The position numbers were made by a program, and so were the translations under genes. DNA of 64,000 nt, from contig LR778114.1 in NCBI GenBank assembly GCA_902809825.1, forward strand, positions 744,001 to 808,000, written 5' to 3'. The notes below the pieces were generated by a model. The model ran no database searches, was not told where the DNA came from, and saw nothing but the letters and a program-made list of their open reading frames with translations. Positions within the stretch are counted from its first letter, which is position 1. Each line of letters opens with the position of its first letter. This DNA comes from Candidatus Hydrogenisulfobacillus filiaventi (GTDB taxonomy: Bacteria > Bacillota > Sulfobacillia > Sulfobacillales > R501). Shown here piece by piece: positions 1 through 54,130 of this stretch.

Positions 1-53
1 AGCTCCAGCCTTCCAAGCTGGCTACGTGGGTTCGATTCCCATCACCCGCTCCA
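1..53 (+). tRNA. tRNA-Gly (TCC anticodon), 5' end cut off
   Basis: The 3' part of a tRNA. The anticodon stem CCAGC/GCTGG encloses the loop CTTCCAA, giving anticodon TCC (reads GGA). The T-arm GTGGG-TTCGATT-CCCAT follows, and the acceptor strand CACCCGC plus T and an encoded CCA ends at 53. The implied 5' acceptor GCGGGTG is typical of bacterial tRNA-Gly. The window begins within the D-arm/anticodon region. Confidence 0.93.
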
Positions 54-60
54 GCTTTTG

Positions 61-136
61 GGGGCTTTAGCTCAGCTGGGAGAGCGCCTGCTTTGCAAGC
101 AGGAGGTCAGCGGTTCGATCCCGCTAAGCTCCACCA
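61..136 (+). tRNA. tRNA-Ala (TGC anticodon)
   Basis: A complete tRNA. The acceptor GGGGCTT (61-67) pairs with AAGCTCC, followed by discriminator A and an encoded CCA (134-136). The anticodon stem CCTGC/GCAGG encloses TTTGCAA, giving anticodon TGC for alanine. D-arm AGCTCAGCTGGGAGAGC and T-loop GGTTCGATCC are canonical. It lies 7 nt after tRNA-Gly and is probably co-transcribed with it. Confidence 0.97.
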
Positions 137-138
137 TC

Positions 139-172
139 CGGACCCCGCATCCCGCAAGGGCTGCGGGGTCCG
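139..172 (+). terminator. hairpin downstream of the tRNA pair
   Basis: Stem CGGACCCCGCA (139-149) pairs with TGCGGGGTCCG (162-172), 11 bp, with a further CCC/GGG pairing inside the loop. It follows tRNA-Ala directly and is the likely end or processing signal of the tRNA transcript. There is no clear T-run, only ATTTCC. Confidence 0.6.
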
Positions 173-666
173 CCATTTCCAGGTGATTGCCGGTTTGGGG
201 TCCATGGGCCGCACGAGCGCAGCCGAGCCATATTGGGCGCAGAAGGCAGGCAGGCAACGCCGGTGTGGGCCGCCGCCCTGCAGCGCGGCTAGGCCGTCAT
301 CCGCCGGGAGCTGCCGGCCTGGCGCAAGGCACGCGAGGGACGCACCCTTCCCGCAGGGGGCTCCGGGCCATGGGTGGCGAGTGCCCCAGCTGCTCGGCCT
401 GGATGCGGCCTCCGGAAGGGCGGACACAGGCCTGCCCCCTGCGCCGGCGGGGCCCGGGGCGGTCGCGCCGCCAGCAGACGCGGCCGCGGCTGGATGGTCA
501 GGAACAGCCCGGGAATCAGGCCGTCGCAGTTTCCAGATGCTACCGGGCCGGTTGCGGGCATCTGCCGGCCGCGGGCGGCCGTGCGCCATCCGGTACGGCC
601 TCCGGCGATGAGACCCCTACCAAGGGCACCGGAATGGCGGGATGCCGGCAGCACACGGAAGCCGCC
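173..666. other. tRNA-downstream spacer with no recognisable gene
   Basis: About 490 bp without a supportable coding frame. All frames are open for long stretches because of the G+C content, but translations are Arg/Ala/Pro/Gly-rich and show no motif, ribosome binding site or family resemblance. No attachment-site repeat of the neighbouring tRNA 3' ends was seen. Confidence 0.5.
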
Positions 667-696
667 AAAGGGTGCCTCCTCAGGGAGGCACCCTTT
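667..696 (-). terminator. terminator of the broken beta-propeller gene
   Basis: A 13-bp perfect stem, AAAGGGTGCCTCC (667-679) with GGAGGCACCCTTT (684-696), and a 4-nt loop. It lies 25 bp beyond the stop of the minus-strand gene ending at 721. The A/T ends of the stem make it usable in either direction. Confidence 0.7.
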
Positions 697-720
697 CCGG
701 GTTCCGGGGCACCGGTCGTG

Positions 721-1550
721 TCAACCGGCGGTCCAGGTGCGCCCGTCGTTGTTCGAGGTCCAGGTATGGCTCTGGAACGACAGGGTGATGGTGCCCCGGT
801 AGGGCACCTGCCAGTGCAGGCCGTCCCGGCTGCCCTGGCCGCTGGCGGCTACCGGCTGCCAGGTGGTCCCGCCGTTGGCGGTAACCCAGAGCGCCATCAC
901 GGCACCGGGCACGCGGCCCAGCGCCCCGAAATAGCCGGCCAGGATGCCATCGGGGAGCGACACCAACGCCGGCGGTTGCAGGGTCAGCGGCTGCTGCGGG
1001 GCGCCGGGGGGCAGGGGAAGCGCCACCGGCTGCGAGGAGCGGCCGCCGTCGGTGGTCTCAAACAGCAAGGGGGTGGGCTTGGCCGCCATCGGGTAGGCCC
1101 CTGTGCGCCATCCCCCGGTGGGGGGGACAAAGGCCAGGCCTACTTTGTAACCGCCGGCCGGGAGACCCTCTCGGATGCAGCGGGGGTCGGGGCGGCCACC
1201 GGCTGCCGTCGTCCCGGGAGGTGGACAATACGGCCGATTCCGATCCCGCCGCTACCCCGTGGTGGTCAATTTCCAGCCCTAGACCGGTGAAAGAAAGGTT
1301 TCCAGGGCGTTGGTCGGGTACCGTTGATGGTTGGGAAGAGCCGGTACGGGGACGGGACCGGACCACGGGCCGGGTGCCCGGATGCCGCCGCCGGGTGAAG
1401 GCTGGCCGGGACCGCCGGTTGTGCCGACGGACCGGCACCGCCGCCCGCGAGCAGGGCACCGCCTACGACGAAGAGGATTGCTTGGCGCCAACCGCGCCGG
1501 ATTAGCGGGCACCGGCAGTGCGGAGGGGGAACGGTTGCCTGCACCTCCAC
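721..1550 (-). pseudogene. BNR/Asp-box beta-propeller protein, broken by two frameshifts
   Basis: Three consecutive minus-strand frames read like one exported beta-propeller protein. Frame one (from about 1550) has a basic start and hydrophobic stretch (RQAILFVVGGALLAGGG), a signal-peptide or lipoprotein-like N-terminus. Frame two (about 1340-1200) holds the Asp-box-like STSRDDGSRW. Frame three (about 1200-721) holds ETTDGGRSSQPV, VTANGGTTWQPV and SNNDGRTWTAG, three more Asp-box blade motifs, and ends at a stop before a terminator. The shifts lie near 1280-1340 and 1195-1215. A minimal intact piece with its own ATG is 721-1089 (122 residues). Asp-box propellers occur in Ycf48-like assembly factors and exo-sialidases; the substrate cannot be told. 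A sequencing indel is an alternative to true decay, and the start is uncertain. Confidence 0.5.
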
Positions 1551-1777
1551 TGGAAGAATGGGGCCAGGTGGACCTGGGCCGGTCGTAGCAGCCGCTACCG
1601 CGGTCGCGGCCGTCCCCGCCCGGGCGGGGGGACGGGCTTGCGCCCCTTGGCCTCCCTAAAAAGGGATGAGCGGTCGCGCCGGGCGGCCGGGGCGGGCCGG
1701 CATAATGGCAGGCAGGGGATAGAGCGGCTAGGGGGCCGGATGGGGCCTCCGGCCGCAGGGCAGAGGAGGAGTCTCCA

Positions 1778-2472
1778 TTGGCTGTGCAGGCCACGACCAT
1801 GCTCCCCGCCGATCTTCCGCTCTTCCGGGCGGTGCCGCCCGAGGTGCTGGCCGCCAACAGCGTCCTCCGCACCTTCCGGGCCGGGGAGGTGGTCTTTGTC
1901 CAGGATGCCCCCACCACCGGCTTGTGGGTGATCCTCCGGGGCCGGGTGGCCATGGACCGGATGGGGCCGGACGGCATGGAGTTCACCACCGGCGTGCACC
2001 TGCCGGGGGAGATGGTGGGCATGGTGGGGCTGTGGGATCAAAGCGGGTACCCGGCCTCGGGGCGGGCGCTGGATACGCCTACGGTCCTGCTCTGGATGGA
2101 TCGGGAACGGTTTCTGGCCCTGCATCGGACGCTGCCGGAGTTCGGCCTGGCCGTCAGCCGGGACCTGGCGGCCCGCGTCCGCTATCATCTGGAAAGCACG
2201 GCCGACACCCGCGGCCGTCCGGCGCCTCGACAGGTGGCGGGATTTTTGGGCATTCTCTACCGGCGTTCGGGGGCGGATGTGGCCCTGACCCATGAGGAAC
2301 TGGCGCGGATGCTGGGGTTGCGCCGGGAGACGGTGAGCCGGGTGCTGCGCAGTTTTGCCCGCCAGGGATGGGTCGCCATGCGTTACGGCCGCATCCGGGT
2401 CCTGGATCCGCTGGCCCTGGAGCGGGTGGGGAAGCCTCCGCGGGGGCGGGGGAGCTGGAGAGCCAGGCCTGA
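1778..2472 (+). CDS. CRP/FNR-family transcription regulator with frameshifted C-terminus
   Basis: The start TTG (1778) sits 6 nt after AGAGGAGGAG. The N-terminal half is a cyclic-nucleotide-binding-like beta-roll (FRAGEVVFVQDAPTTGLWVI, then LPGEMVGMVGLW). The C-terminal half is a winged helix with recognition helix LRRETVSRVLRSF, the usual CRP/FNR arrangement in about 230 residues. No N-terminal cysteine cluster is visible, so an FNR-type Fe-S sensor is unlikely. The frame does not stop before the terminator at 2489; it runs on to 3547 antisense to cydA. Adding one G to the run at 2441-2453 gives a normal stop at 2470-2472, which is the end given here. It faces cydA, so control of respiration is plausible but inferred. 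Confidence 0.8.
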
Positions 2473-2488
2473 ACCCCGCCAAAGCCGG

Positions 2489-2517
2489 GGGCCCCCTCCC
2501 GGACCGGGAGGGGGCCC
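2489..2517. terminator. bidirectional terminator between the crp-like gene and cydA
   Basis: GGGCCCCCTCCCGG (2489-2502) pairs perfectly with CCGGGAGGGGGCCC (2504-2517), a 12-14 bp stem with a tiny loop between two convergent genes. Confidence 0.75.
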
Positions 2518-2533
2518 TGCAGCGGCAGCGGGC

Positions 2534-3922
2534 TTAGACCACCCGCGTATAGGGCACGCCGGTCTCCTCCTCGTGGGCGACCGGGCCCAGGTCGGTGTCG
2601 GCGTACTTCCGGAACAGGTAGACCGCGAAGCCCGCCATCAGCCCGTAGACCAGGGTGAAGGTGATGAGGGAGAAGGCGATATCGGCGGCTGGGACCGAAA
2701 CCGGCGGCGACACTCCGTCGGCGGTCTTCAACAGGCCGTAGACCACCCACGGCTGCCGGCCGACCTCGGTCATGATCCAGCCGGAGATGTTGGCCAGGTA
2801 GGGCAGGGGCAGGCTCCACTCCGCCAGCTTGAGGAAGCGCTTGCGGTGCAGGAAGCGGTCGCCCTTGAGCAGGAAGACCCCCCACCACATCAGCAACAAC
2901 ATCAGGGTCCCGGCCAGGATCATGACCCGGAAGGCGTAGAAGACCGGGGCCACGGGCGGGATGTAGTTGCCGGGCCCGTACTGCTTCACATACTGCGCCT
3001 GTACTTGGTTCATGCCTTCAATGGCACCGCTCAGGCGTTTGTAGGCCAGGATGCTGAGCAGGTCCGGGATCTGGATGACGGCGGTGTTCTTATGGGTGGC
3101 GCCGTTGACAATGGCGAACACCTTCCAGGGCGCGTGCTCCCCGGTGGAATTCCACAGCGCCTCCGCCGCCGCCAGCTTCATGGGCTGGGAGGTGCGCAGG
3201 TGGGCCGCCATCTGGTCGCCGATGGCGATAACCAGCACGGTGGAGATGGCCCCTACCACCGCCGCGATCCGGAAGGAATGCTTAAACGCCTCCACGCTGC
3301 GGCCCTTCAGGATCTGGAAGGCACTGATCGCCAGCACGAACACGGAGGCGGTCACCCAGGAGGCCATCACCGCGTGCGGGAACTCCACCCACAGCTGGGG
3401 GTTGGTCAGGATGGCCCCGAAGCTGGCCATCTCCGCCCGGTGATGGACGATCACGTAGCCCACCGGCTCCTGCATGAAGGAGTTGGCGGTCAGGATCCAG
3501 AAGGCGGAGAGGGAGGTGCCGAGGGCGACCATCCAGATGGCTGCTAGGTGCACCCCGCGCGAGACGCGGTCCCAGCCGAACACCCAAATGCCGATGAAGG
3601 CCGACTCCAGGAAGAAGGCCATCAGGGCCTCCACCGCCAGCGGGGCCCCGAAGATGTCCCCCACGAAGCGTGAATAATCGGCCCAGTCGAGGCCGAACTG
3701 GAACTCCTGCAGGATGCCGGTGACCACCCCGATGGCGAAGTTGATGAGGAACAGCTGTCCCCAATATTGGGCCAGCTGCCGGTACTCCCCCTTCCGGGTG
3801 CGGTAATACTGGGTCTCCATGATCGCGATGAGGAAGGAGAGGCCAATGGTCAGCGGCACAAAGAGAAAATGATAGATGGTGGTCACGCCGAGTTGCAGGC
3901 GCGCCAAGCCGAGCTGGGTCAC
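2534..3922 (-). CDS. cydA: cytochrome bd ubiquinol oxidase subunit I (orphan)
   Basis: A 462-residue polytopic quinol:O2 oxidoreductase subunit of the cytoplasmic membrane. The heme ligand motif TTIYHFLFVPLTIG has the conserved His at about residue 18. The proton-path glutamates lie in LAVEALMAFFLES, and GWIMTEVGRQPW is the C-terminal signature. The GTG start at 3922 follows AAGGGAGGA by 8 nt; upstream in-frame codons lack a site and would add a charged tail in front of the first helix. A partner cydB normally follows cydA, but here a terminator and the crp-like gene follow instead, so subunit II must be elsewhere or absent. About 315 bp of leader separates it from the small upstream gene. 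Confidence 0.93.
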   Translation of the reverse strand: MTQLGLARLQLGVTTIYHFLFVPLTIGLSFLIAIMETQYYRTRKGEYRQLAQYWGQLFLINFAIGVVTGILQEFQFGLDWADYSRFVGDIFGAPLAVEALMAFFLESAFIGIWVFGWDRVSRGVHLAAIWMVALGTSLSAFWILTANSFMQEPVGYVIVHHRAEMASFGAILTNPQLWVEFPHAVMASWVTASVFVLAISAFQILKGRSVEAFKHSFRIAAVVGAISTVLVIAIGDQMAAHLRTSQPMKLAAAEALWNSTGEHAPWKVFAIVNGATHKNTAVIQIPDLLSILAYKRLSGAIEGMNQVQAQYVKQYGPGNYIPPVAPVFYAFRVMILAGTLMLLLMWWGVFLLKGDRFLHRKRFLKLAEWSLPLPYLANISGWIMTEVGRQPWVVYGLLKTADGVSPPVSVPAADIAFSLITFTLVYGLMAGFAVYLFRKYADTDLGPVAHEEETGVPYTRVV

Positions 3923-4237
3923 GAGCCGTGTCCTCCCTTCGAGGTGATTGACGGGCAGCTCCCGGTACGGCCGAAGCGGGAGGTCCTCCGGGGAGAGCCC
4001 CCGGGACCGGCCGGCGCACACACCCTACAGGTCGCAGGATAGTCCGGCCAAACGGAAGTCGAACAGGCGCAAACGGCGCAACAATGCCTTTACACTGCCA
4101 GGTTAATAAACCAGCCACTCCGGGTTCTTTTGTGCCTGGACAGTTCGGGCGGAAAAGGCGGGCGATATGAGCGCGAAAGGGCAAAACGGGCCAGGTTGCA
4201 AGCGGGTGGAAAGAACTAGTCCTGTCCGGGCGGGGGG
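3923..4237. promoter_or_regulatory. cydA upstream region
   Basis: 315 bp with no gene. It contains one of the more A/T-rich stretches in the window (about 4080-4135, including TTAATAAACC). I saw no convincing FNR (TTGAT-N4-ATCAA) or Rex dyad and no good -35/-10 pair, so this is only the inferred control region of cydA on the minus strand. Confidence 0.4.
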
Positions 4238-4420
4238 TCAGGGGGCGTCGGACTCCGGCGCAACGGCGGCCCGCTGGCGGCGCCGGGCGGCATAGGCGCG
4301 GTAGCACGGCTGGCAGCGCCGGGCCTGGCCGGTAGCGAGGATGTCGTGGCGGGTGACGGGCCTCCCGCAATCGCAGCAGCGGGCGAACTCCCGGGTGCCG
4401 GCGGTACGATCCAGCAGCAC
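4238..4420 (-). CDS. small zinc-finger-like protein (60 aa)
   Basis: The GTG start (4420) is placed 8 nt after a perfect AAAGGAGG, which argues for a real gene despite its size. The protein has a treble-clef or zinc-ribbon cysteine pattern, CCDCGRPV followed about 20 residues later by RRCQPCYRAY, then a basic tail (AARRRQR). The spacing resembles DksA/TraR-like or DUF-type small zinc fingers, but the family is not identified. It lies upstream of and co-oriented with cydA, and diverges from the sugar transporter at 4607. Confidence 0.7.
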   Translation of the reverse strand: MLLDRTAGTREFARCCDCGRPVTRHDILATGQARRCQPCYRAYAARRRQRAAVAPESDAP

Positions 4421-4606
4421 GGACCTGGCCTCCTTTCAGGTGTCCGGACGGTTTTCAGGGTAACCGGTCCCGGTTAGGGTGCGGTTAAGGGCGGGGGAGC
4501 ACCGGGTTAAGCTCCGGTTACGCCGGGTGGGCCCGCCGCCGGCGGGGAAGGGATAAGATGGCCGCGGGGGCCACGGTCGGCCCTGCCGGGAGAAAGGAGG
4601 AGGCCG

Positions 4607-5986
4607 GTGAGCACAGAAGGGGCGTTTCCGGAGGTCCGCTCCCTGACCTCCCACGGCTATACCGTGATCACGGCGGCCATTTCGGCCATTGCCGGCATGC
4701 TCTTCGGGTACGATACCGGGGTCATCTCCGGCGCCATTCTCTTCATCCGCGACCGCTTTCACCTGCGCGCTCTGCCCGAGGAACTGGTGGTCAGTGCCGT
4801 GCTGGCCGGGGCGGTGGCGGGGGCGGCCCTGGGCGGCTGGCTGGCGGACGCCGCCGGCCGGCGCCGGGTGCTGATCGGGGCGGCGGTGGTGTTCGCCCTG
4901 GCGGCCCTGTTCACCGCCCTGGCGCCTTCGGTGCCGTGGTTGGTAGCGGGCCGGATAGCGGTGGGGCTGGCCATCGGGGTGGCCTCGTTCACCGCCCCCC
5001 TCTACATCTCCGAGATGGCTCCCGCCGACATCCGGGGGGCGCTGGTGTCGCTCAATCAGCTGGCGCTCACCGTGGGCATCGTCACCGCCTACCTGGTCGA
5101 CTTCGCCTTTGCCCCCCACGGGGCTTGGCGCTGGATGTTCGGGTCGGCGGTGGTGCCGGCCCTCGCGCTGCTGGTGGGGATGCTGGGGCTTCCGGAGACC
5201 CCGCGCTGGCTGCTGATGCGGGCACGGGAGGGACCGGCGGCGGCTGTGCTGCGGCGGATTTACGGGCGGGCGGACGTTCGCGCCGAGGTGGACGCCATTC
5301 GCCAGGACCTGCAGCAGGAGGCGGCCCGCCCCGAGGAACTCTGGAGTCCCGACCTGCGCCCGGCGGTGGTGGTAGGGGCGGGGCTGGCTATCCTGCAGCA
5401 GGTGACCGGGATCAACACCGTCATCTATTACGCCCCAACCATCTTTGAGTTTGCCGGCTTCCATTCCGCGGCCGTCTCCATCCTGGCTACGGTGGGGGTG
5501 GGGCTGGTCAACGTGCTGATGACGGTGGCGGCCATCGGGTTACTGGACCGGGCCGGTCGGCGGCCCCTGCTGCTGGCGGGGGTGGCGGGGATGGTGGCCA
5601 GCCTGGCGGTGCTGGGGCTTGCCTTTCATCTGCCGGCGGCCTCCCGCAGCCTGGGCTGGCTCACGGTGGCGGGGCTGATGGTCTATGTGGGGTCGTTCGC
5701 CATCAGCCTGGGGCCGGTGTTCTGGCTGCTCATCGCCGAGATCTACCCGCTCCGCATCCGCGGCCGGGCCATGAGCTTCGCCACCCTGCTCAACTGGCTG
5801 GCCAACCTGGTGGTGGCCCTCACCTTCCTCTCGCTGGTGCAGGCCCTCGGCCGCGGCAACACCTTCTGGCTGTACGCCCTCATCGGGGTGGGCACCTGGG
5901 TGTTCGCCTACCGGCTGGTCCCGGAGACCAAGGATAAAAGCCTGGAGCAGATCCAGGCCCAGTGGGCCGCCCGCCGCGGCCGCTGA
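4607..5986 (+). CDS. MFS sugar:proton symporter (sugar porter family)
   Basis: 459 residues with twelve predicted membrane helices. All family signatures are present: GYDTGVISGAI in helix 1, GWLADAAGRRR between helices 2 and 3, PETPRWLL (variant of PESPRWL), LQQVTGINTVIYYAP in helix 7, DRAGRRPLLL, and the C-terminal PETKDKSLEQIQ. Such proteins import hexoses or pentoses with H+. The exact sugar cannot be assigned. GTG start after AGAAAGGAGG. It stands alone; the neighbours are not sugar-related. Confidence 0.93.
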   Translation: MSTEGAFPEVRSLTSHGYTVITAAISAIAGMLFGYDTGVISGAILFIRDRFHLRALPEELVVSAVLAGAVAGAALGGWLADAAGRRRVLIGAAVVFALAALFTALAPSVPWLVAGRIAVGLAIGVASFTAPLYISEMAPADIRGALVSLNQLALTVGIVTAYLVDFAFAPHGAWRWMFGSAVVPALALLVGMLGLPETPRWLLMRAREGPAAAVLRRIYGRADVRAEVDAIRQDLQQEAARPEELWSPDLRPAVVVGAGLAILQQVTGINTVIYYAPTIFEFAGFHSAAVSILATVGVGLVNVLMTVAAIGLLDRAGRRPLLLAGVAGMVASLAVLGLAFHLPAASRSLGWLTVAGLMVYVGSFAISLGPVFWLLIAEIYPLRIRGRAMSFATLLNWLANLVVALTFLSLVQALGRGNTFWLYALIGVGTWVFAYRLVPETKDKSLEQIQAQWAARRGR

Positions 5987-6085
5987 GGCCGGCCGGCAGG
6001 GATCGGGCCCGGCCGTGCCGAACCTCCTGGCAGGGCGGAGGGAGGTGAGCGGCTTGCCGGGGAGCACCGGACAGCGGCCGCAGCC

Positions 6086-12129: not shown

Positions 12130-13383
12130 TTGGGCGCGGTGATTGCCAATCTGCCGGCAGAAATCCCGGGATGGCTGCTGGTGGCCATCTTCTGCCTGAT
12201 GGGGATCGGGCTGGGGGTGGTGCTGGAGCGGAGCCGGTTCTGCTTCACCACCGCCTTTCAGGAGACCATGGAGTTCCATAACCCCTGGATCCTGCAGGGG
12301 GTCTTCCTCTTCCTCGGCATTTCGGCCATCGTGTTCTCCGCCTTTACCCAGAGCGGCACCGTCCATCCGGTGATGGTGGACCAGGGCTGGTACACGGTGG
12401 TGGGCGGCTTCCTGTTCGGGGTCGGCATCGCCATGTGCGGGGCCTGCGCCACCGGGCAGTTGTTCCGGGCCGGGTCCGGTTACGTGGCCAACTGGCTGGA
12501 GTTCATCGGGGCCGGCCTGGGCGGCACCCTGTTCGTGCTCTTCGTCTATCAGCCGGTGGAGAAGCCGGCGCTGGCCGCCTCCCGCCCCATCACCCTCTAC
12601 GGGGCCCTGCATCTCCCCCCGCTGGTCTGGGGGCTGTTCACGGGGGCGGTGTTCATCGGGCTGGCGTTCTGGCTGCGCCGCTTTGTCCCTCAGCGCAAGG
12701 CCCAGGGCTACCAGGAGAAGGCCTTTACCTTCTCCCTCAAGCAGCCCTGGCATCCCTATGCGGGCGGGGTGGCGCTGGCGGTGCTGACTGTACTCTACGT
12801 GGTCCTGTCCGCCGGACAGTCCATGAGCGTCATGAGCCCCAACACCCTCTCCATCGCCTGGCTGCTTAACTGGATTACGCGGCCCCTGGGCTACAACCTG
12901 GCGGATAAGCCCTGGTTCGCCATGGGGCAGGTGCACGGCCGCCTGCTTTCGCGGCTCGACCCCTTGAGCCTCAACCGGCTGGCGGTGGCGCATGTGGGAC
13001 ACCACTTGGGCTACCTGGCCCTGGGCATCTGGCTCTTCATTCCCATCTCCATCCTGGGGGCCTTCCTCTCCTCCAAGGTGGCGGGCGACTTCCGTATCCG
13101 CATCCCCGCCCGCCGCTCCAAGCTGTTGTGGTACCTGATAGGCGGGGTGTTCATGGGCTTCGGGGCGCAGATGGCGCTGGGCTGCAACATCACCGCCTGG
13201 TCGGACAGCTTTGCGGTGCGGATGGACCTCTCCGGACTGCTGTTCACGGTGGGGCTGTTCCCGGGGGTGTGGTTCGGCACCCAGCTGGACGAGTGGATCG
13301 CGGAGCGCATCTGGAGCAACCGGACCCTGGCGGCCAAGCGGCGCACGGCGCCGGTATCCTCACCGGCCCCCACCACCCGCTGA
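12130..13383 (+). CDS. YeeE/YedE (TsuA)-family sulfur-compound transporter
   Basis: 417 residues in about ten helices, two pseudo-symmetric halves. The conserved cysteine motifs of the thiosulfate transporter TsuA are present: RSRFCFTTAF near residue 40, GVGIAMCGACATGQLFRAG near residue 100, and GAQMALGCNITAW near residue 345. In TsuA these cysteines line a thiosulfate relay path. The TTG start lies about 9 nt after AAAGGGGGG. Linkage to TusA is common in bacteria that use thiosulfate. The loop between halves is longer than in short YeeE proteins. Confidence 0.88.
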   Translation: MGAVIANLPAEIPGWLLVAIFCLMGIGLGVVLERSRFCFTTAFQETMEFHNPWILQGVFLFLGISAIVFSAFTQSGTVHPVMVDQGWYTVVGGFLFGVGIAMCGACATGQLFRAGSGYVANWLEFIGAGLGGTLFVLFVYQPVEKPALAASRPITLYGALHLPPLVWGLFTGAVFIGLAFWLRRFVPQRKAQGYQEKAFTFSLKQPWHPYAGGVALAVLTVLYVVLSAGQSMSVMSPNTLSIAWLLNWITRPLGYNLADKPWFAMGQVHGRLLSRLDPLSLNRLAVAHVGHHLGYLALGIWLFIPISILGAFLSSKVAGDFRIRIPARRSKLLWYLIGGVFMGFGAQMALGCNITAWSDSFAVRMDLSGLLFTVGLFPGVWFGTQLDEWIAERIWSNRTLAAKRRTAPVSSPAPTTR

Positions 13384-48206: not shown

Positions 48207-49182
48207 GGGGGAGGACCGCCCCCGGGCGGCCGCGGGCTGGTGGCGGAAAAGCGGCCGCCTGTTGGGCCAGGCGCCCATCCTGGTGGGGTTTCTGGCCCTG
48301 GTGGTGGCACTCTCGTTCCTGTCCCCGTACTTTTTGACGGTCAGCAACTGGCTGCAGCTCATCATGCAGACCAGCATGATGGCGCTGGTGGCTATGGGGG
48401 AGACGGTGGTCATCCTCACCGGCGGCATCGACCTGTCCTCCGGGCCTACGGTGGGGCTGGCGGGGATGATCGGGGCCGGCCTGCTGCTGCGCGCTCACAC
48501 GGGGGCTCCAGTGGCGTTAGTCGCCTCCCTGGCGGTGGGGCTCCTGATGGGGCTGGTGAACGGGCTCAGTGTCACCCGGCTGAAGATGGCGCCCTTCATC
48601 GTCACCCTGGCCACCGGTTCCATGGCCTCCGGCCTGACCCTGGCCTATTCCCGTGGCAACACCCTGGCGCCGGTGCTGGGGCCCTATGCCTATCTGGGCG
48701 GCGGCACCCTGGCCGGCATCCCGGTGCCGGTGCTGCTGACCCTGGCGGTATTCGCCGGGTTGGGCTGGGTCCTGGCCCGCACGGTGTGGGGCCGGCAGGT
48801 CTATGCTGTGGGCGGCAACCGCACCGCCGCCTACCTGGCCGGCATTGACGTCCAGCGGACCGAGCTGTCGGTCTATGTGCTGGCCGGCCTGCTCTATGCG
48901 GTGGCGGGCATCGTGGAAACCGGGATGCTGGGGGCGGCCACCGCCAGTGCCGGGCAGAACCTGGTCCTCACCCCCATCGCGGCGGTGGTGATCGGCGGGG
49001 TCTCCCTCTTTGGCGGGCTGGGCAGCTTGTGGGGCACCTTCCTGGGTGCCATCACCCTGGGGGTGCTGACCAACGGCCTTGACCTGCTCAACGTTTCCCC
49101 CTTCTATGCGCAGGTGGTCTATGGGCTGGTCGTCTTCCTGGCGGTGCTGATGGACGTGACCAACCGCAAGCGCCAGCTGTGA
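48169..49182 (+). CDS. rbsC: sugar ABC transporter permease (RbsC-like)
   Basis: 337 residues. The ATG at 48169, 9 nt after GGAGGAGG inside rbsA, gives a 38-nt overlap and coupled translation. About ten helices; CUT2 permease motifs GETVVILTGGIDLSSGPTVG, MAPFIVTLATGSMASGL, GGNRTAAYLAGI and VVIGGVSLFGGLGSLWGT. Forms the channel with RbsA and receives sugar from RbsB. Confidence 0.93.
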   Translation: MLPVSPMPGPHPEGEDRPRAAAGWWRKSGRLLGQAPILVGFLALVVALSFLSPYFLTVSNWLQLIMQTSMMALVAMGETVVILTGGIDLSSGPTVGLAGMIGAGLLLRAHTGAPVALVASLAVGLLMGLVNGLSVTRLKMAPFIVTLATGSMASGLTLAYSRGNTLAPVLGPYAYLGGGTLAGIPVPVLLTLAVFAGLGWVLARTVWGRQVYAVGGNRTAAYLAGIDVQRTELSVYVLAGLLYAVAGIVETGMLGAATASAGQNLVLTPIAAVVIGGVSLFGGLGSLWGTFLGAITLGVLTNGLDLLNVSPFYAQVVYGLVVFLAVLMDVTNRKRQL

Positions 49183-49196
49183 AGGGAGGGACGGGC

Positions 49197-49598
49197 ATGT
49201 TGCGCACCGGGATTCTGCATCCGGAATTGGGGGCGTGGCTGGCCCGCCTCGGCCATCACGACCGCCTCCTCATCAGCGACGCCGGTTATCCCATGGTGCC
49301 GGGCGCCGCCCGCATCGACCTCGGGTTTGCCCCCGGCCGGCCCGGCCTGCTGGAGGTGGTGGAGGCGGTCGTGGCGGTCCTGCCCCTGGAGCGGGTGTGG
49401 GTGGCGGCCGAACTGCCGGAGCAGCAGCCCGGCTTCTTCCGCCACCTGGAGGCCCTTCTGCCCGCGGGGGTGCCGGTGGAGCGGCTGGCGGACCACGAGA
49501 CCTTTAAGGCCACCGCGGCCGGGGTCCCCCTCATGGTCCGGACGGGGGAGTTCACCCCCTTCGCCAACTGCCTGCTGGAGTGCGGGGTGGGATTCTAA
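49197..49598 (+). CDS. rbsD: D-ribose pyranase
   Basis: 133 residues; ATG after GAAGGGAGGGACG. RbsD interconverts pyranose and furanose forms of ribose. The family start ILHPELGAWLARLGHHDRLLISDAGYP has the catalytic His; DHETFK and TGEFTPFANCLLECGVGF close the fold. Its presence argues the operon handles ribose. No ribokinase gene is in the window. The last 13 codons are inside a tandem duplication. Confidence 0.92.
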   Translation: MLRTGILHPELGAWLARLGHHDRLLISDAGYPMVPGAARIDLGFAPGRPGLLEVVEAVVAVLPLERVWVAAELPEQQPGFFRHLEALLPAGVPVERLADHETFKATAAGVPLMVRTGEFTPFANCLLECGVGF

Positions 49599-49623
49599 AG
49601 CCGGCAGCAGGATGGCCGGTTGG

Positions 49624-49647
49624 GCCCCGGGGCCAGCGCCCCGGGGC
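49624..49647 (+). terminator. rbs operon terminator, copy 1
   Basis: GCCCCGGGGC (49624-49633), loop CAGC, GCCCCGGGGC (49638-49647), then TCTGCTCTTCT. It lies 26 bp after the rbsD stop. Confidence 0.75.
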
Positions 49648-49733
49648 TCTGCTCTTCTATGCCCGCGTGCCTCCGGCCGCGGCTTGCGGCACGGTGATCC
49701 CGCTGCGGCTGCCGGGCTGCCGGGGTTGGCGCC

Positions 49734-49762
49734 TTGACAGGGAGCCGATCCCGCCGGATAAT
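49734..49762 (+). promoter_or_regulatory. duplicated promoter, copy 1
   Basis: TTGACA (49734-49739), 17 bp, GATAAT (49757-49762). A transcript from here would first cross the second terminator copy at 49828-49851. Confidence 0.7.
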
Positions 49763-49827
49763 CTTCGCCAACTGCCTGCTGGAGTGCGGGGTGGGATTCT
49801 AAAGCCGGCAGCAGGATGGCCGGTTGG

Positions 49828-49851
49828 GCCCCGGGGCCAGCGCCCCGGGGC
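49828..49851 (+). terminator. rbs operon terminator, copy 2
   Basis: Exact second copy of the 10-bp G/C stem and T-rich tail, created by the 204-bp duplication. It would end transcripts from the copy-1 promoter. Confidence 0.72.
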
Positions 49852-49937
49852 TCTGCTCTTCTATGCCCGCGTGCCTCCGGCCGCGGCTTGCGGCACGGTG
49901 ATCCCGCTGCGGCTGCCGGGCTGCCGGGGTTGGCGCC

Positions 49938-49966
49938 TTGACAGGGAGCCGATCCCGCCGGATAAT
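49938..49966 (+). promoter_or_regulatory. promoter of the MarR/efflux operon (copy 2)
   Basis: TTGACA (49938-49943), 17 bp, GATAAT (49961-49966). Perfect -35 and five-of-six -10. Predicted start near 49973, directly over the ATACTT/AAGTAT dyad. Confidence 0.82.
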
Positions 49967-49977
49967 TAGCGGCGTGT

Positions 49978-49998
49978 ATACTTAGAGTCACGAAGTAT
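49978..49998. promoter_or_regulatory. ATACTT-N9-AAGTAT dyad, candidate MarR operator
   Basis: An exact 6-bp inverted repeat just after the predicted transcription start of the operon whose first gene is MarR. Spacing and position suit autorepression. Confidence 0.6.
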
Positions 49999-50016
49999 TC
50001 GGGAGGCGAAGGACAG

Positions 50017-50490
50017 ACGGAGGAGCAGGATCGGGGCCAGATCATCGAGGCCATTGAGGCCCTGCTGGTGCGGCTGGGGCGCCGCCTGCGCTGGGCCTTT
50101 CCCGACGAGGGTCTGACCATGGCCCAATTTGCGCTTCTCAAGCTGGTGGACGCGCATGGTCCCCTGACCATGGGCGAACTGGCCGACCAGCTGGGCGTTT
50201 CCCTGGCCACCGCCACCGGCCTGGTCGACCGCCTGACCGCCGCCAACCTCCTGACCCGGGAACGGGCGGAACGGGACCGGCGGGTGGTGGTGGTGCGCCT
50301 GAGCGAAAGCGGGCAGGCGCGCATGGCCCAGGCCCAGGCCCGGCGCCGGGCGTACATGGCCAGCGCCCTTCGGCACCTCGGGACCGGGGACCTGGAAATC
50401 TTTCTGCGCCTTCTGACCCAGATTACCGAGGGTGTGGAGCGGGACGGCCACGGTGCCGGGGAGGCCCCGCATCCCGGGAAGGAGGGTTAG
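50017..50490 (+). CDS. MarR-family regulator (canonical start only at GTG 50068)
   Basis: The winged-helix core is clear: LTMAQFALLKLVDAHGPLTMGELADQLGVSLATATGLVDRL, with the wing RERAERDRRVVVVRL. From the GTG at 50068 the protein is 140 residues but has no good ribosome binding site. The frame is open upstream and reads as a normal MarR first helix (EEQDRGQIIEAIEALLVRLG) from ACG 50017, which lies 10 nt after GGGAGG. An ATG-to-ACG change or use of ACG/other rare start are possible. The coordinates given follow the longer reading. It probably represses the efflux genes behind it. Confidence 0.78.
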   Translation, partial: TEEQDRGQIIEAIEALLVRLGRRLRWAFPDEGLTMAQFALLKLVDAHGPLTMGELADQLGVSLATATGLVDRLTAANLLTRERAERDRRVVVVRLSESGQARMAQAQARRRAYMASALRHLGTGDLEIFLRLLTQITEGVERDGHGAGEAPHPGKEG

Positions 50491-50492
50491 CC

Positions 50493-51242
50493 ATGGGCTG
50501 GCTATGGGCCGGCATGTTGGAAGGCGTAGCCGGGATTGTCGTGGGCGTGGTGCTGTGGACGGCCCTGCCCACCAACGTGCAGCCGGTGGGACTGGTAGCG
50601 GCCCTGGCCGGGGTGGTCGCCATGCTCGCCACCTTGGCCTGGGGCCGGCCGGAGCCCCGGGAGGCCGGAGAGGAACCGGCGCCCGAGCCGGGGCCGGCAG
50701 GGGAGCCGCTGGTGCCGCCGCGGGTGGCGCTGGCGGCCGCAGGGTCGGAGTGGCCGGAGCTGCCGGACGGCGCCTGGACGGTGCCCGCCGCGGATGTGGA
50801 CGGGGCCAGCATCATGGGCCGCGAGCAGGCCATCGCGCGCGCCCGCTGGCAGGCCCGCGCCGCCGACTGGCGGGATCGGGCCCGGCGGGTTGACCCGGGG
50901 GATCCTCGGGGGGCGGCGGAGGTCCGTATCCTGACCCAGGGCTTCGGGGCCCTGGCCCAGGGCAAGGCCCCGGAGCCGGCGGTGCGGCAGGCTGCGGGCC
51001 TGTCGCCCGAGGAGGCTGCCGCCTGGCGGGCGGAGCTGGACGATGAGGCGGCGCGGCTGGAGGAGGAGTGGCGGCGGGTGACCAGCGCCCGTGCCTCCGC
51101 CGCCGGCGCGGCGGAGGCGTGGCGGGCCTGGCGCCGGGCCCGCGAACTGGCCGACCGCCTGGAGGAGATTACCCTGATCCGGACCGCCCTGGAGACCGCG
51201 GCGCCGGTAGGGCCCGCCCGGCCGGAGGAGGGAAAGGCGTGA
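50493..51242 (+). CDS. membrane-anchored coiled-coil protein in efflux operon
   Basis: 249 residues; ATG after GGAAGGAGG. Two N-terminal helices (MLEGVAGIVVGVVLWTAL and VGLVAALAGVVAMLATLAW), a Pro/Glu linker, then a long Glu/Arg/Ala-rich helical part (AAAWRAELDDEAARLEEEWRRV to the end) likely to coil. No known family. GTGA overlap with the following HlyD-like gene. It may supply the helical hairpin that the short HlyD-like proteins here lack. Confidence 0.7.
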   Translation: MGWLWAGMLEGVAGIVVGVVLWTALPTNVQPVGLVAALAGVVAMLATLAWGRPEPREAGEEPAPEPGPAGEPLVPPRVALAAAGSEWPELPDGAWTVPAADVDGASIMGREQAIARARWQARAADWRDRARRVDPGDPRGAAEVRILTQGFGALAQGKAPEPAVRQAAGLSPEEAAAWRAELDDEAARLEEEWRRVTSARASAAGAAEAWRAWRRARELADRLEEITLIRTALETAAPVGPARPEEGKA

Positions 51243-51865
51243 AGCGAGGCTGGTTTATCGGGACCGCCATCGTCGGGGTGCTCACCCTGGGCGGGGTGGC
51301 GGCCGGCTACGCCTACGCCCGTCAGCACTGGGTGAGCACCGATTACGCCCGATTTGTCGCGCCGACCGCCTGGGTCTCCGCGCCCGCCACGGGCACGTTG
51401 GGCCAGGTGCGGGTCAGTCCCGGGGAGGCAGTCCAGCCGGGCACCGTGGTCACCACCGTGCACACGGCGACCGGAACCCGGGTGGCGGTGACGGCCGGTG
51501 CGGCGGGCCGGATCGCCAGCCTGGCGGTCCACCGCGGGGACCCGGTCACAGCGGGCCAGCCGCTGATGGCGGTGGTAGATGTCAGCCAGGGCCAGGTGCT
51601 GGCCGAAATTCCCGGCAGCGATGCCGGAAAGGTGGGCGTGGGCTACACCGCCCACTGCCGCTTTACGGCCGACCCCGGGATTTCGGTGGCCGGTACCGTG
51701 GACGCCATCGGGGGCGCGGCGCTGGCGTGGCCGGCACCGCCCTCCAGTGGCGCCTATGTGCGGCAGACGCAGTGGATTCCGGTGCGCATCCGCCTCGAGG
51801 GCGTGCGCGGTTCGGGAGTGCCCCTGATTGCGGGGGAAAGTGTCAGTGTCCGCATCGACCGGTGA
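51239..51865 (+). CDS. short HlyD/EmrA-like membrane fusion protein
   Basis: 208 residues from GTG 51239, overlapping the upstream stop. One N-terminal helix (WFIGTAIVGVLTLGGVAAGYAY), then lipoyl-like half-motifs: APATGTLGQVRVSPGEAVQPGTVV and AGAAGRIASLAVHRGDPVTAGQPLM, and a beta-barrel segment. The coiled-coil hairpin between the lipoyl halves is absent. Works with the DHA2 transporter that follows. Confidence 0.78.
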   Translation: MKRGWFIGTAIVGVLTLGGVAAGYAYARQHWVSTDYARFVAPTAWVSAPATGTLGQVRVSPGEAVQPGTVVTTVHTATGTRVAVTAGAAGRIASLAVHRGDPVTAGQPLMAVVDVSQGQVLAEIPGSDAGKVGVGYTAHCRFTADPGISVAGTVDAIGGAALAWPAPPSSGAYVRQTQWIPVRIRLEGVRGSGVPLIAGESVSVRIDR

Positions 51866-51895
51866 CGGCCGGCGGCCGGAAGGGAGGCCAAGCGT

Positions 51896-53434
51896 GTGGC
51901 GACGGCAGCGTCCCTGATGGGGGACGGACGGCATTGGGGCCGGGCCCTGTTCGTGATCATCATCGGGGCCTTCATGGCCATCCTGGATACCTCCATCGTG
52001 AACATCGCCATCTCCACCCTGGAGAGCGAATTCTCCGTTTCGACCTCCCAGGTGCAGTGGGTGGTCACTGTGTACCTGCTGGCCCTGGGGGTGGTGGTGC
52101 CCATGGCCGCCTACCTGGGGGACCGTTTCGGATTGAAGCGCGTGTACCTAGCCGCGTTGACCATCTTTACCATCGGATCGGCCTTGTCGGGCTTGTCCTG
52201 GAGCCTGGGCGCCCTCATCTTTTTCCGCATCCTGCAGGCGCTGGGCGGTGGGCTCATCATGCCGGTGACCATGTCCATGCTGTACCAGATGGTGCCGCGC
52301 GACCGCATCGGCACCGCCATGGGCATCTGGGGCCTCACCCTGCTGTTCGCCCCCGCCCTGGGCCCCACCCTGGGCGGCTACCTGGTGCAGTTCATCACCT
52401 GGCGGCTCATTTTCTACATCAACGTGCCCATCGGTATCCTGGGCATCCTGCTCGGGATTGCGTACGTCCCCGATTTTCCGGTGCGCAAGGGGGCACGTTT
52501 CGACCCCGTGGGCTTCGTGCTGGTCGCGGCGGGGCTGTTCGGCCTGCTGTTGGCCCTTTCCGAGGGCCAGACCTGGGGCTGGTCCTCGGAAACGATCGTG
52601 CTGCTGCTGGTGGGGTCAGGCTTTCTCCTGCTCCTGTTCACGGAATGGGAGCTCACGATCCCCCACCCGCTACTCAACCTGCGGGTGTTCCGTTACGGGA
52701 GCTTCACCTTAAGCAACCTGCTCTCCATCATCATCACCATGGGGCTCTTCTCCGGGGTCTTCTATGTGCCCCTCTTCCTGCAGACGGTGGCGGGTTACGG
52801 CGCCTTCCGCACCGGGCTCATCCTGATGCCGGGGGCGCTGGCCTCCGGACTCATGATGCCGATCGCCGGCCGCATCTACGACAAAATCGGGGTGCGCCTG
52901 CTGGGGACGGTCGGGCTCCTGCTCCTCGGCTACACCACCTACCTGCTGCATAACCTCTCGCCCACCACTCCGGCGGGCACGGTGACCTGGTGGATGGTAT
53001 GGCGGGGGTTTGGCATGGGCATGACCATGATGCCCATCATGACCGCGGGTATGTCCCCCATCCCCACTCTGGAGGTGGGGTCTGCCTCTGCCATCAACAA
53101 CATCATCCAGCGGGTGGCGGGGTCCTTCGGGTTGGCCGCCCTCACCGCCGTCCTCGACCGCCGGGTCGCCGCGCATACCGTCAACCTGGCCTCCCCCTGG
53201 ACGCCGGTCAACCCCGCCGCCCAACACCTGCTGGTCCTCTTTCACCATCTGCCCCAAGGTCTCACCCTGTTGGGCGGCTACATTCAGGGGGAGGCGTTTG
53301 TGTTCGGCATTGATGACGTCTTCGTGCTGATGGCGGCCCTGACGGTGACGGCGGCGGTGCTGACCCCCTTCCTGCGTACCGTCCGGCATCCCCCCGGCCC
53401 CGGTGGTGGCCGTCGGGTAATTGTCAGCGATTAG
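51896..53434 (+). CDS. DHA2-family (EmrB/QacA) multidrug MFS transporter
   Basis: 512 residues, fourteen helices. Motifs: FMAILDTSIVNIAISTL in helix 1 (motif D1), GDRFGLKRVY (motif A), RILQALGGGLIMPV (motif B), WGLTLLFAPALGPTLGGYL (motif C), WRLIFYINVPIG. H+-driven drug export. GTG after GAAGGGAGGCC. Flanked on both sides by HlyD-like proteins, an unusual double arrangement. Confidence 0.93.
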   Translation: MATAASLMGDGRHWGRALFVIIIGAFMAILDTSIVNIAISTLESEFSVSTSQVQWVVTVYLLALGVVVPMAAYLGDRFGLKRVYLAALTIFTIGSALSGLSWSLGALIFFRILQALGGGLIMPVTMSMLYQMVPRDRIGTAMGIWGLTLLFAPALGPTLGGYLVQFITWRLIFYINVPIGILGILLGIAYVPDFPVRKGARFDPVGFVLVAAGLFGLLLALSEGQTWGWSSETIVLLLVGSGFLLLLFTEWELTIPHPLLNLRVFRYGSFTLSNLLSIIITMGLFSGVFYVPLFLQTVAGYGAFRTGLILMPGALASGLMMPIAGRIYDKIGVRLLGTVGLLLLGYTTYLLHNLSPTTPAGTVTWWMVWRGFGMGMTMMPIMTAGMSPIPTLEVGSASAINNIIQRVAGSFGLAALTAVLDRRVAAHTVNLASPWTPVNPAAQHLLVLFHHLPQGLTLLGGYIQGEAFVFGIDDVFVLMAALTVTAAVLTPFLRTVRHPPGPGGGRRVIVSD

Positions 53435-53473
53435 TTCCGGCCCCAGGCCGGCGAAAGGAGTCTTAGGCCCATA

Positions 53474-54130
53474 ATGAAGCCCGGACGCGTGATCCTCATC
53501 AACGTACTGCTGGTGGTGGCCCTGGTGATTTTGGGCGCCCTCGGCGTTTACCTTTGGTCTCAGAACTACGACTACGTCAGCACCGCCGATGCCAGCATCA
53601 ACGCCCCCTCGGTGCCGGTGGTGGCGACCGCCACCGGCACCCTTGCCAGCCTGCCTGTGCACGTCGGGGAGCACCTCAAGGCGGGGCAGACGGTAGCCAC
53701 CGTAACCGTGCCCCCCAGCGGCAAGAGCGGGCCCACCACCGTCACCATCACCGCCCCGGTCAACGGGACTGTGGCCCAGGTACAGGCGGCGCAGGGCCAG
53801 ATGGTGACCCCCGGCACCCCGCTGGTGACCGAGGTGCAGCTCTCGCAGGTGACGGTGGTGGCCAACATCCCCGAGACCAAGATCCGGCGGGTGCACGTGG
53901 GGCAAAGCGCGCAGGTGACGGTGGACGCCCATCCCGGCGTGACCTTTACCGCCACCGTGGAGCACATCGCTCCAGCCACCCAGTCCTACTTCTCGGTGCT
54001 GCCCACCACCGCCACCGCCGGCAGTTACACCAAGGTGGTGCAGCGGGTGCCGGTCATCCTGTCGGTGGATACCGCCGGCTACACCCTGCTGCCGGGGGAG
54101 AACTGCGAGGTCCGCATCACCATCCACTGA
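53474..54130 (+). CDS. second short HlyD-like membrane fusion protein
   Basis: 218 residues; ATG after GGCGAAAGGAG. One helix (VILINVLLVVALVILGALGVYLW), then ATATGTLASLPVHVGEHLKAGQTVA and TAPVNGTVAQVQAAQGQMVTPGTPLV lipoyl halves, and VVANIPETKIRRVHVGQSAQVTVDA barrel. Also lacks the coiled-coil hairpin. Clearly homologous to the protein at 51239 but divergent, so an old duplication. Confidence 0.8.
   Translation: MKPGRVILINVLLVVALVILGALGVYLWSQNYDYVSTADASINAPSVPVVATATGTLASLPVHVGEHLKAGQTVATVTVPPSGKSGPTTVTITAPVNGTVAQVQAAQGQMVTPGTPLVTEVQLSQVTVVANIPETKIRRVHVGQSAQVTVDAHPGVTFTATVEHIAPATQSYFSVLPTTATAGSYTKVVQRVPVILSVDTAGYTLLPGENCEVRITIH

Follow-up and report, generated by a model that had tools for sequence, protein, structure and literature searches.

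The intergenic region between the rbs and marR-efflux operons of strain R50 carries two abutting, identical copies of a 204-bp unit, which we consider to be, most probably, a young and small tandem duplication that arose in the strain or in its culture. Each copy combines the 3'-terminal 40 nt of rbsD with a GC hairpin and the −35/−10 pair of the marR-efflux promoter. In this reading, the copies were joined independently of homology, copy 2 would hold the regulated efflux promoter, and promoter 1 would mostly give a short RNA. The locus is most likely a small duplication of recent date and ordinary type, near-neutral and probably with a small effect on the cell. R50 ('Candidatus Hydrogenisulfobacillus filiaventi'), growing on H2 and CO2, has its optimum at 55°C and pH 3 (PMC10080006).

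The analyzed window is a stretch of 64,000 nt (64 kb) of the R50 genome, which is a single contig of 2,570,337 bases. A self-comparison of the window aligned the two direct copies at 204/204 bases with a spacing of 204. The period-204 run of identity spanned exactly 204 bases and had a differing base at either end, giving a copy number of exactly 2.0 with no partial third. At periods of 20–6000, the window had no other identity run reaching 30 bases. A genome-wide search for a third copy found none; the only other match was 29 nt long, at 90% identity. Since this match (at 1181912) falls within a reading frame and seems fortuitous, we rejected a dispersed element as the nature of the unit. An Rfam search of positions 49000–50600 returned one match, at chance level. 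These comparisons bear out the first-pass annotation, which had described an abutting 204-bp tandem duplication that includes the end of rbsD and carries two TTGACA-N17-GATAAT promoters; all of this is present in the assembly. From the identity of the copies it had deduced a very recent event, a population polymorphism, or an assembly error. Those are the right options, but youth is not the only possible source of identity: recombination can also homogenize tandem copies.

Table 1. Features of the duplicated locus and its flanks (window coordinates)
Feature	Position	Strand	Basis
rbsD, intact; last 40 nt in copy 1	49179–49598	+	Pfam PF05025 RbsD_FucU, 1.7e-32
Copy 1 of the 204-bp unit: native rbsD 3' end, hairpin, promoter 1	49559–49762	+	Self-comparison
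Hairpin 1, behind rbsD; 10-bp perfect GC stem with tail TCTGCTCTTCT, a possible intrinsic terminator	49624–49647	+	Fold
Promoter 1, TTGACA-N17-GATAAT; rbsD fragment and hairpin 2 lie downstream	49734–49762	+	Consensus scan
Copy 2 of the 204-bp unit: displaced 40-nt rbsD 3' fragment, hairpin, native marR promoter	49763–49966	+	Self-comparison
Predicted ~94-nt RNA between promoter 1 and hairpin 2; both ends deduced from sequence	49769–49862	+	Inference; fold
Hairpin 2, same sequence as hairpin 1, downstream from promoter 1	49828–49851	+	Fold
Promoter 2, TTGACA-N17-GATAAT, at the native marR promoter position	49938–49966	+	Consensus scan; related loci
Dyad ATACTT-N9-AAGTAT, operator-like; one copy, not part of the 204-bp unit	49978–49998	+	Sequence; pairing in aligned relatives
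marR; coordinates from the first standard start codon, the true one possibly upstream	50068–50490	+	Pfam MarR, 4.1e-16
Efflux operon: 249-aa protein with no Pfam match, HlyD-like, MFS, HlyD-like	50493–54130	+	Pfam

Upstream of the duplication is an rbs-type operon, whose LacI-type regulator, binding protein, ABC ATPase, and RbsD were assigned by Pfam. We searched for the rbsD–marR junction by DNA match in 40 relatives and in R50 itself, and obtained matches in nine of the 41 genomes, all of them short except at the locus itself. RbsD was present in six of these 41 genomes (R50 and five others), and a contig search with RbsD found nothing. The order of the efflux genes is shared with Sulfobacillus thermotolerans Kr1 (locus L024) as far as the MFS gene: marR, a membrane-type protein, HlyD-like, and MFS, with a −35/−10 pair similarly placed. 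The Sulfobacillus operon differs in that one promoter pair is seen and proline dehydrogenase stands upstream instead of rbsD. Proline dehydrogenase also precedes marR in a further related locus (L031); the one R50 match to this gene is at 2.21 Mb, and the rbsD–marR neighborhood is thus unlike either of these loci. In the interval 49966–50070, at the beginning of marR in R50, no ATG, GTG, or TTG occurs between an in-frame stop at 49963 and the GTG at 50068; aligned relatives start marR directly after the ribosome-binding site, where R50 has CAG/ACG. Either a start further in, a nonstandard start, or a small sequence error would account for this.

The two promoter sites each match the consensus at 11 of 12 positions, and two were found compared with 0.2 ± 0.4 in shuffled sequence. 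Of 24 related loci, 18 have a comparable −35/−10 pair in front of marR, a count that includes duplicates, as three pairs of loci are identical in sequence (L078/L024, L086/L027, and L007/L033); the other six had no promoter match. In 10 relatives, picked from the 24 for a clear −35 and a nearby start, copy 2 and its flank could be aligned over the −35, the −10, the next AT-rich stretch, and the ribosome-binding region. That TTGAC is invariant there partly reflects the choice of relatives with a clear −35. Together, the pairs at related loci and the alignment place the native promoter position in copy 2 and the native end of rbsD in copy 1. The promoter belongs to the downstream marR-efflux operon. 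It is reasonable to regard copy 2 as the main efflux promoter, provided that hairpin 2 stops transcripts from promoter 1.

The hairpin is a plausible candidate terminator. Its perfect stem has a folding energy of −24.5 kcal/mol, and the tail that follows is partly T (four in the first eight bases, six in 12). A scan with an intrinsic-terminator consensus (5 T in 8 directly after the stem) called neither hairpin. Across 464 kb there were 112 perfect stems with a length of 9 bp or more; 11 of them, both hairpins included, had at least six T in the 12 bases on either side, versus 53 of 4200 random places. The first-pass annotation had counted two terminators here and had argued that only copy 2 should drive efflux. 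Two strong GC hairpins are indeed present, but with an imperfect T tail and no call in the consensus scan; likewise, a native marR promoter in copy 2 speaks for the second claim, but its "only" is weakened, because hairpins that are not canonical terminators may permit read-through from promoter 1.

Beyond the promoters and terminators that the earlier annotation addressed, it had overlooked an operator-like dyad, ATACTT-N9-AAGTAT, which is unique in the R50 genome and lies after copy 2, between the −10 and the ribosome-binding region. Being outside the 204-bp unit, the dyad is missing behind promoter 1. Among the 10 aligned relatives (chosen from 24, and kin to one another), the dyad columns were paired in 41 of 60 cells, versus six to 24 when slid by one to eight columns. 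None of 5000 shuffles, which preserve letter content only, reached 41/60. A perfect TACTT-N-AAGTA site occurred in none of the 24 related marR upstream stretches, which suggests that the dyad is conserved by pairing and not by its letters. We infer that it is a putative MarR operator.

How the copies were joined can be partly read from the junction, whose lack of microhomology the first-pass annotation had missed. The join shares 0 bases, and the surroundings of the breakpoints are alike at four of 20 positions within ±10. A join of this kind looks like homology-independent joining, by Ku/ligase end joining or another illegitimate route, and we infer such an event. The R50 genome encodes Ku adjoining an ATP-dependent ligase, a finding of presence only that is no proof of use. 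Zero homology is seen at 46% of random breakpoints 204 apart, which means that end joining is not singled out and that the support for any one route is weak. Slippage between short direct repeats does not fit as an origin, there being no microhomology at the join. The zero-homology junction argues against simple slippage and k-mer misassembly alike. Joins of this type have precedent: 36 of 104 Acinetobacter duplication junctions were without identity, as cited in a Streptococcus pneumoniae study (PMC4432121).

Duplications such as this one are rare in the sequence we sampled. In 400 kb of R50 (16% of the genome, in addition to the 64-kb window), there was one other tandem run, with a 57-bp period and a run of 94, located in a reading frame, plus a single set of repeats ~3.6 kb apart. 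A relative, sampled over 400 kb, had no tandem run that covered 80% of its period.

An assembly or polishing artefact is unlikely: in that case the genome would have a single copy, and Canu, Racon, or Pilon would have written in a second at a hairpin-rich and GC-rich spot. Coverage can drop where DNA folds very strongly, and the unit does so fold (−102 kcal/mol over 168 nt). The assembly, moreover, was made with Canu from R9.4.1 Nanopore reads and polished by Racon and Pilon with Nextera XT Illumina reads, as stated in the published account (PMC10080006). Against this, misjoins by overlap or k-mers would need shared sequence, and the join has no shared base; reads of 301 bases exceed the 204-base unit and make two copies resolvable; and 464 kb held no second such case except the 57-bp repeat in a reading frame.

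It is very unlikely that the duplication is a selected regulatory change, in which culture or soil conditions favored a spare, operator-free promoter for raising basal efflux expression. The dyad was left outside the duplicated unit, and tandem duplications that raise efflux expression through read-through are on record (PMC4432121). Hairpin 2, however, separates promoter 1 from marR, and transcription could still be blocked by bound MarR. We find it highly improbable that the duplication is old and that its copies were kept identical by recombination. Homogenization could achieve this, but the same recombination would more commonly lose one copy, and the DNA matches showed the junction in no relative, so that the relatives give no age. 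Under the favored reading of a young duplication, the duplicated state would be expected to revert by recombination.

Returning to the young duplication, promoter 1, with no dyad behind it, would mostly yield a short RNA ending at hairpin 2. If the hairpin works as a terminator, promoter 1 and hairpin 2 form a transcription unit of ~94 nt; if it leaks, marR gets extra transcripts from an operator-free promoter. Some polymerases from promoter 1 may read on toward marR. The fold of the predicted RNA as a whole is ordinary for its composition (z −1.23); its hairpin part is unusual (z −2.52). A more speculative idea, which we regard as rather unlikely, is that tandem copying of a hairpin-then-promoter unit sets a promoter ahead of a terminator and so makes a new sRNA gene in one step, here "caught at birth"; the predicted RNA would start in the 3' end of rbsD and, unlike the parent promoter, would escape the MarR operator. 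Literature searches on small RNAs arising from intergenic duplication, on junctions of short tandem duplications in bacteria, on duplications made by end joining, on duplicated promoters in MarR efflux systems, and on false duplications by Pilon gave no report of this case, within those topics. The operator-free promoter ahead of a hairpin is the point worth attention; an RNA-seq data set (PRJNA616204) is named in the published account (PMC10080006). If reads confirm it, the locus would be a clean natural example of one small duplication parting a promoter from its operator, and promoter–terminator cassettes made by duplication might be one way in which new small RNAs arise. Failing that, it is a routine duplication or a place where the reference genome needs correction.

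Two known systems invite comparison. The tandem duplications of the ermC leader/attenuator in staphylococcal plasmids pSES6 and pRJ5 are likewise short and lie in a control region upstream of a resistance gene. They differ in that they reportedly lie in a translational attenuator and go with constitutive resistance, whereas the R50 unit, known from sequence, is a gene end, hairpin, and promoter. The patAB duplication of S. pneumoniae M184 (PMC4432121), with promoter switching, is also tandem, involves an efflux operon, and has little homology at its join; its genes are read through from another promoter, as is possible in R50. In contrast to the 204 bp of R50, which include no whole gene, it spans 9.2 kb and whole genes, and its expression was measured.

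The other repeats of the sampled sequence are as follows. The 57-bp tandem repeat, of about 2.6 exact copies, lies inside long reading frames of L101 (16558–16710). The widely spaced direct repeats, 3.55–3.68 kb apart and with identical runs of up to 1318 bases, occupy long reading frames at 12227–19800 of L104 (G000:C1, about 1.804–1.812 Mb). The start of a G017 contig (L107, 36–212) has CRISPR-like 36-nt direct repeats spaced 70–71 bases.
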